From Smittium mucronatum (taxonomy: Eukaryota; Kickxellomycota; Harpellomycetes; Harpellales; Legeriomycetaceae): a stretch of 25,987 nt of DNA. Position numbers and translations under genes: made by a program. Location: contig LSSL01001057.1 in the NCBI GenBank assembly GCA_001953115.1, forward strand, positions 20,550 to 46,536. The letters run 5' to 3'. Positions 25,452 through 25,530 of the stretch are shown in pieces (the first letter of the stretch is position 1; every line of letters begins with the position of its first letter). The notes beneath the pieces are model-generated. The model saw only the letters and a program-made list of their open reading frames with translations, had not been told where the DNA came from and made no database searches.

Positions 25452-25530
25452 CCTCTAAGAGTGAAATGCCTTGCCGTGGTTTAGGGGCTTAATATTGTAC
25501 TTTTCGAAGTACAATAGTCCAAAATTTCAC
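25452..25530 (+). ncRNA. Putative HDV-like self-cleaving ribozyme at the 5' end of a retroelement
   Basis: The segment can form the HDV-like double pseudoknot in the correct order. P1 is CCTCTAA (25452-25458) with TTAGGGG (25481-25487), seven pairs including one G-U. P2 is GTGAAAT (25461-25467) with ATTTCAC (25524-25530), seven Watson-Crick pairs. P3 is GCC (25468-25470) with GGT (25478-25480), closing loop TTGCCGT. P4 is TATTGTACTT (25493-25502) with AAGTACAATA (25507-25516), ten pairs capped by TTCG. The joining strand 25517-25523 is GTCCAAA, giving a C followed by A-A-A where the family places its catalytic cytosine before a purine-rich stretch. Cleavage would fall between 25451 and 25452. 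Weak points: P1 begins with C rather than the commoner G, and a two-pair P1.1 is not obvious. Known roles of such ribozymes in non-LTR elements are 5'-end processing of the transcript and possibly translation. Confidence 0.7.

Follow-up and report, generated by a model that had tools for sequence, protein, structure and literature searches.

A predicted HDV-like ribozyme at the 5' end of an abundant SINE-like retroposon in the fungus Smittium mucronatum

The window analysed here is a stretch of 25,987 nucleotides (nt) from Smittium mucronatum (assembly GCA_001953115.1, contig LSSL01001057.1, positions 20,550 to 46,536). Its positions 25452-25530 very probably form a self-cleaving ribozyme like that of hepatitis delta virus (HDV). 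This ribozyme would be the head of a non-coding, A-tailed retroposon of about 618 nt that resembles a short interspersed nuclear element (SINE) and has about a thousand core sites in the genome. Self-cleavage is a function predicted from the sequence. In the cycle that we propose, the element would be transcribed by read-through, cut by the ribozyme, polyadenylated, and inserted by the machinery of a long interspersed nuclear element (LINE). A preliminary description, made from the letters of the window, had placed an HDV-like ribozyme here in an AT-rich, probably fungal genome, and the host is indeed a fungus: a 541-aa protein encoded on another contig (L031) is 100% identical to a protein phosphatase of S. 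mucronatum, followed by matches from S. culicis, S. angustum and Zancudomyces.

The fold and its position on the element

What singles out this fold? The decisive point is its position: it begins on the first base of the retroposon. In the window copy, all 27 of 27 pairs are formed, two of them G-U, in the order P1-P2-P3-P3'-P1'-P4-P4'-P2', the nested double pseudoknot of HDV ribozymes. The four helices of the preliminary description, with one G-U each in P1 and P3 and a UUCG loop on P4, were all recovered at the positions listed here.

25452-25987, + strand: SINE-like retroposon copy, the 5' 536 bp of about 618 bp, interrupted by the contig end
25452-25530, + strand: predicted HDV-like ribozyme fold, with the predicted cleavage site at 25451/25452
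25452-25458, + strand: 5' strand of P1, CCUCUAA, pairing with 25481-25487 (7/7, one U-G)
25481-25487, + strand: 3' strand of P1, UUAGGGG
25461-25467, + strand: 5' strand of P2, GUGAAAU, pairing with 25524-25530 (7/7)
25524-25530, + strand: 3' strand of P2, AUUUCAC
25468-25470, + strand: 5' strand of P3, GCC, pairing with 25478-25480 (3 pairs, one G-U)
25478-25480, + strand: 3' strand of P3
25471-25477, + strand: L3 loop, UUGCCGU
25493-25516, + strand: P4 hairpin of 10 pairs (25493-25502/25507-25516) with a UUCG loop
25519, + strand: putative catalytic cytosine in J4/2, followed by Y-A-A-A; its role is suggested by the HDV family

The active-site letters of HDV-like ribozymes are U...C-G-U in L3 and C-N-A-A in J4/2, and the L3 loops of HDV and CPEB3 have U first and C-G near the end. 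The loop UUGCCGU is presumably of this HDV/CPEB3 type, and we take the cytosine at 25519 to be the equivalent of C75 in HDV. When only nested pairs are allowed, the window copy folds into P2+P3+P4 at -19.3 kcal/mol (z -2.20, with 7 of 200 shuffles equally low), while P1+P3+P4 is obtained in copies L019 (z -2.89, 2/200 shuffles) and L014 (z -2.02, 5/200).

The borders of the other copies fall on the same base. Among 43 non-self alignments that extend into the 5' region (from 40 fetched loci, duplicated loci counted), 30 have their first base on 25452 itself, 2 on 25451 and 8 at 25455-25462. The remaining 3 reach 15-47 bases further upstream by gapped extension. The flanks of the copies look unrelated; homology running well upstream of 25452, which the preliminary description had named as evidence against a ribozyme, was otherwise not seen. 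Target-site duplications (TSDs) lead to the same base. Both ends lie on the contig in 22 copies; L032, which has N in its 3' part, was set aside, leaving 21 complete copies. TSDs of 10-16 bp flank 13 of these 21, compared with 6 of 420 mismatched control pairs. In 11 of the 13, the upstream duplicate stops at offset 0, directly ahead of ribozyme nucleotide 1; in the other 2 it stops at +1 or +2. Thus the proposal of an HDV-like fold at the 5' end of an element of the non-LTR (long terminal repeat) type is borne out by both kinds of border. As for the suggested context of R2 and L1Tc, the element that carries the fold is short, non-coding and SINE-like rather than an evident LINE of the R2/L1Tc type.

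Conservation among copies and the case for cleavage

To follow the fold within the family, we aligned 40 copies, including that of the window (L001). Left out were L006, L035 and L043, whose flanks are identical to those of L005, L015 and L042, together with L031, whose 5' end is off the contig, and internal fragments. The majority sequence forms all 27 of 27 pairs by Watson-Crick pairing; counting the window copy itself, 3 of 40 copies have the U-G that it shows in P1 (pair 3-34), and 4 have its G-U in P3 (17-29). In L3, U20 is conserved in 38 copies, C24 in 36, G25 in 35 and U26 in 38. In J4/2, C68 (25519) and A70 are each conserved in 39 and A71 in all 40. The C-A-A-A that had been read before P2' is therefore right in having a J4/2 cytosine, but the conserved one is 25519, while 25520 is C in 20 copies and T in 20. 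Helices are intact in 31/40 copies for P1 (7/7), 30/40 for P2 (7/7), 32/40 for P3 (3/3) and 23/40 for P4 (10/10). Uncompensated breaks of P1 or P2, which the preliminary description would have counted against a ribozyme, thus do occur in many single copies; note that decayed copies would look alike. A covariance model built from the 40 copies (R1) scores 103.8 bits at exactly 25452-25530, the window copy itself being among the 40.

The same model also finds two diverged heads, L014:114-192 (32 bits, E 0.001) and L031:6417-6499 (27 bits, E 0.011). The family of the latter aligns from L031:6422 to 7049 with element positions 4-624 (113 bits). By eye, its P2 is kept through a double change, GUGGAAU/AUUCCAU, and its J4/2 reads C-U-A-A. 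Two further relatives, L016:628-947 and L031:7646-7084(-), are decayed; so many of their pairs are broken that they say nothing useful about the fold, and they were set aside. The families at L031:6422-7049 and L031:7646-7084(-) lie near each other and appear to be two diverged members of the same SINE clan, with a common internal block around TTAATC..TTAGAAGTA.

A number of results weigh against the ribozyme. When the window was dinucleotide-shuffled 200 times and both strands were searched, a stricter form of the topology (P1 7/7, P2 of at least 7, P4 of at least 6, CNRA) appeared in 87 of the shuffles, with a mean of 0.69, and the topology alone is not significant. The Rfam models of the HDV family give no match in the window at the gathering threshold, nor around the site at E 10. 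Nucleotide +1 is C, and the majority letters allow P1.1 only one C-G pair (37-22) plus U-U (38-21), where two pairs are the HDV-like expectation; one C-G plus U-U also occurs in CPEB3. All 27 pairs are kept in just 11 of 40 copies, and P1-P3 are fully paired together with the J4/2 C in 17 of 40. The compensatory changes among copies that the preliminary description had looked for turned out to be weak. Paired cells amount to 94.3% versus 93.9% after shuffling, with 42 of 500 shuffles as high. Changes on both sides occur at 4 pairs, as many are found in 25 of 500 shuffles, and partners slid by +2 give 5, exceeding the 4 of the structure itself. The covariation score is matched by 7 of 500 shuffles. 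At the P4 pair 44-63, exact contexts across the genome comprise 258 G-C, 3 U-A (one being the window), 14 G-A and 16 U-C, which falls short of significance (Fisher p 0.09). Of the diverged heads, inspected by eye, L031:6417 has a broken P1, and L014:114 has lost P2, carries a C-A mismatch in P1 and differs in its P4 hairpin. Finally, 8 of the 21 complete copies have no TSD.

How far do these points reach? P4 compensation and covariation within the family neither back nor refute the fold, and the weakness of the covariation is probably due to the decay of most copies once inserted. The search with known HDV-family models that had been proposed found nothing, its genome-wide part being limited to RF00094, for which 68 candidates were scored and none matched at E 10. 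However, an Rfam match is a usual sign rather than a defining feature of the HDV family, which is divergent in sequence. The exact core was also searched in viral contigs, with 0 matches. As for chance, a relaxed topology (P1 7/7, P2 of at least 6, P4 of at least 4, CNRA) occurs 6.4 times per shuffle versus 7 times in the real window. Since the topology is common in this DNA, the case rests on the position and the HDV-type L3 loop. If an L3 filter U....G(N)U is added, which was picked post hoc after the site had been seen, 0 of 200 shuffles remain for P2 of at least 7, and 7 of 200 for P2 of at least 6. For the position, the chance that the stricter class hits one given base, here the element border, is about 1e-5 by our own arithmetic (0.69 per about 52,000 start positions). 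Could the 5' structure instead be kept for a role other than cleavage, such as reverse transcriptase binding or one related to translation, with the 5' end being the transcription start? Activity that is only predicted, weak covariation and the many copies with broken pairs would all agree with this. It is nevertheless very unlikely in view of the specific HDV topology, the letters of L3 and J4/2, and the location of P1 nucleotide 1 on the insertion border.

The retroposon and its proposed life cycle

The window end coincides with a contig end in an assembly of 73.8 Mb and 2,957 contigs. A genome search with 25440-25987, in which 40 of 2,247 candidates were scored, gave at least 42 matches: the window itself and 41 others with identities of 88-91%. 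The 19-nt core P3-L3-P3'-P1' has 1,067 genomic matches at up to 3 mismatches versus 3 for the reversed control. Among the complete copies, 20 of 21 measure 613-624 nt, and L022 is longer through an assembly gap. They share the 3' end ...ACAATAAAATTCCGTGATAC, after which most have A, and there are stop codons in all three forward frames (checked in one copy). Severely 5'-truncated tails of 18-35 nt have TSD-like flanks of 10-15 bp at 7 of 8 sites, which were picked by eye and without a control. The A-tails, TSDs and 5'-truncated copies are marks of target-primed reverse transcription (TPRT). In sum, the element is short, non-coding, dispersed and A-tailed, with TSDs and 5'-truncated copies, as expected of a SINE. 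Three truncated copies are in the window itself:

11151-11168, + strand: severely 5'-truncated copy, element 3' end and A-tail, with 10-bp TSD-like flanks (E 0.56 alone)
11346-11370, - strand: severely 5'-truncated copy with 15-bp TSD-like flanks (E 0.029)
16320-16352, + strand: severely 5'-truncated copy with 10-bp TSD-like flanks (E 6e-5)

A different sequence at 12293-12349 ends in TTTTATGACGTTATCCATTAATAAAATTATGCGATAAAAAA, which resembles the SINE 3' end; it is the one of the 8 sites picked by eye that has no TSD, and it may belong to another family with a common tail. Some irregularities concern the assembly. At L022:1001-2137 and L032:1001-2144 a run of N is flanked by partial element copies. 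As several contigs stop inside the element and there are N runs within copies, the assembly seems to break on it. L015 and L035 (C487:8316 and C487:30) are in opposite orientation on one contig with identical upstream flanks, suggesting an inverted duplication or a misassembly. At G000:C234:17776-19043 and G000:C144:14487-15462 the distance from head to tail is about 1.28 kb and 0.99 kb, respectively, versus the usual 0.62 kb, which might reflect longer variants, tandem copies or assembly gaps.

Which RNA polymerase would transcribe such an element? AATAAA lies 12 nt upstream of the A-tail in 18 of 21 complete copies. TTTT is found in 21 of 21, the first one at position 50, beside the P4 loop, in 16. 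In the part of the element inside the window, neither a tRNA (ARAGORN) nor a 5S/7SL-type Rfam match was found, and the head thus differs from the RNA polymerase III (Pol III) promoter head, derived from tRNA, 5S or 7SL, of classical SINEs. The T-runs, the AATAAA with A-tail and the lack of a tRNA or Rfam RNA make a polyadenylated RNA polymerase II (Pol II) transcript likelier than a Pol III one. A conventional Pol III SINE, with an A box in the head and a 5' end set by Pol III initiation, could point to TGGTTTAGGGG, a perfect A-box match at positions 26-36 of the element in copy L029 (the same letters are at 25477-25487 in the window), which spans the last base of L3 and the P3'-P1' strand, and to a B-box-like GATCAAACC at position 281 of L029. 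But chance alone should give about 0.6 A-box matches per 620 bp (our own arithmetic, with equal base frequencies), the spacing from A to B box is far beyond the usual, and TTTT, so often at position 50, should halt Pol III. With the missing tRNA and 5S/7SL-type match and the signs of Pol II added, this explanation is highly improbable. The A-box match is probably due to chance, though the head may serve as both promoter and ribozyme as in trypanosomatid Pr77. A tRNA-like stretch was noticed by eye at L009:5423-5452 (minus strand), upstream of a SINE 3'-end fragment at L009:5595-5656.

Taken together, we infer the polymerase, the cleavage and the mobilising LINE as follows. The element would have no promoter of its own and would rely on read-through, being included in a larger transcript of the host, for which Pol II is the probable polymerase. 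The ribozyme would then cut at 25451/25452, as the fold and the copy borders suggest, and free the 5' end of the RNA, while AATAAA, judging from the sequence, would yield a polyadenylated 3' end. LINE machinery would reverse-transcribe this RNA at a nicked target, to which the A-tails, the 10-16 bp TSDs and the 5'-truncated copies point indirectly. Such a cycle would make full-length copies begin at ribozyme nucleotide 1. Restoration of the 5' end by the ribozyme has been suggested for ribozyme-bearing non-LTR elements (PMC3774820).

Origin of the element and its relation to known systems

The closest precedents are NARTc, RIME and SIDER of trypanosomatids and the R2 short internally deleted elements (SIDEs) of Drosophila; these too are short retroposons headed by an HDV-like ribozyme, and hence the same kind of element. 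In the trypanosomatids, where the ribozyme Pr77 heads the L1Tc/ingi LINEs as well, the mapped products begin at C1, as predicted here (PMC4035085). The 77-nt head is common to short elements and LINEs of the same genomes, while no such LINE was met among the few read here, and Pr77 is also a promoter (PMC4035085); the present host, moreover, is a fungus. R2 SIDEs likewise consist of a ribozyme head and a 3' tail and are moved by TPRT, but they are rare, located in ribosomal DNA and derived from R2/R1, whereas the present element has about a thousand core sites and A-tails (PMC3414825). The R2 ribozyme itself also puts an HDV fold at a retrotransposon 5' junction (PMC3774820). Its P1 is typically 6-7 bp, its P2 at least 5 bp and its P4 variable, and its L3 has conserved C and G sites besides the catalytic C (PMC3774820). 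The present fold agrees in the lengths of P1 and P2, the catalytic C and the conserved C and G in L3; R2, however, is an autonomous site-specific LINE, and many R2 ribozymes cleave inside 28S rRNA (PMC3774820).

Fungi also have variant HDV ribozymes, 230 in 26 species, with widely variable gene associations (PMC5640933). They have in common with the present one the fungal host and a C-G pair at the cleavage site, but they carry a loop-E P4 and an extra P2-P3 nucleotide, whereas P4 is here a plain 10-bp helix and there is no extra nucleotide; the word "retrotransposon" is absent from the main text of that report (PMC5640933). Retrozymes are likewise non-autonomous retroelements with self-cleaving RNA and have transcripts of 600-1,000 nt, but with tandem hammerheads and circular RNAs in place of one HDV-like fold and the hallmarks of TPRT (PMC8865084). 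A ribozyme-headed fungal SINE was not reported in the literature searched, which mostly did not include subscription papers. Novel features would be the host group, the copy number, the end with a polyadenylation signal and, among the LINE ends compared, the absence of a parent LINE.

Where did the element come from? One possibility is that the ribozyme is real but that the element arose by internal deletion from an autonomous LINE of this genome with such a ribozyme, rather than as an independent SINE lineage. This is the known origin of the closest precedents (PMC3414825, PMC4035085), and the genome does have candidate parents. Reverse transcriptases gave at least 151 matches (150 of 605 candidates scored), of which at least 7 are in open frames of 984-1,008 aa, taken as non-LTR by size. 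The frame at L044 begins endonuclease-like by eye, with no Pfam match for a 142-aa piece of it. But in the 5' regions of 4 of these 7 LINEs, 0.7-0.9 kb upstream of the start of the open reading frame (ORF), no match of the 40-copy model was found below E 0.1 (best 0.19, L047), and descriptor matches there were weak and judged unconvincing. The SINE tail is absent from the 381 and 401 nt past the estimated ORF ends of two LINEs, whose true ends are uncertain. Ends in common with a resident LINE were thus not found in the 4 5' regions and 2 post-ORF stretches. Furthermore, by eye, none of 100 listed exact core sites (of the 1,067 matches) is just upstream of a listed reverse transcriptase on the same strand. 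In addition, the diverged family can be aligned over nearly the whole element, so the short form should be old. Descent from such a LINE therefore appears unlikely, though not far-fetched. We tentatively suggest, at somewhat less than even confidence, an old independent SINE lineage in which the ribozyme head replaces the Pol III promoter; it would be promoterless, carried inside Pol II transcripts, equipped with its own polyadenylation signal, and moved by a LINE without common ends.

If the ribozyme assignment holds, ribozyme-headed short retroposons, found in trypanosomes and Drosophila, would also occur in a fungus, and there in many copies. The insertion borders pin the predicted cut site to a single base, and the element suggests how a SINE could function with no promoter inside it. 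It would also provide a natural collection of some thousand variants of a single ribozyme.

Elsewhere in the window, the region 16000-21000 has a higher proportion of G and C (about 35%) and several ORFs in overlapping frames, with only sub-threshold NCBP3 matches in Pfam; it may be a gene with introns.
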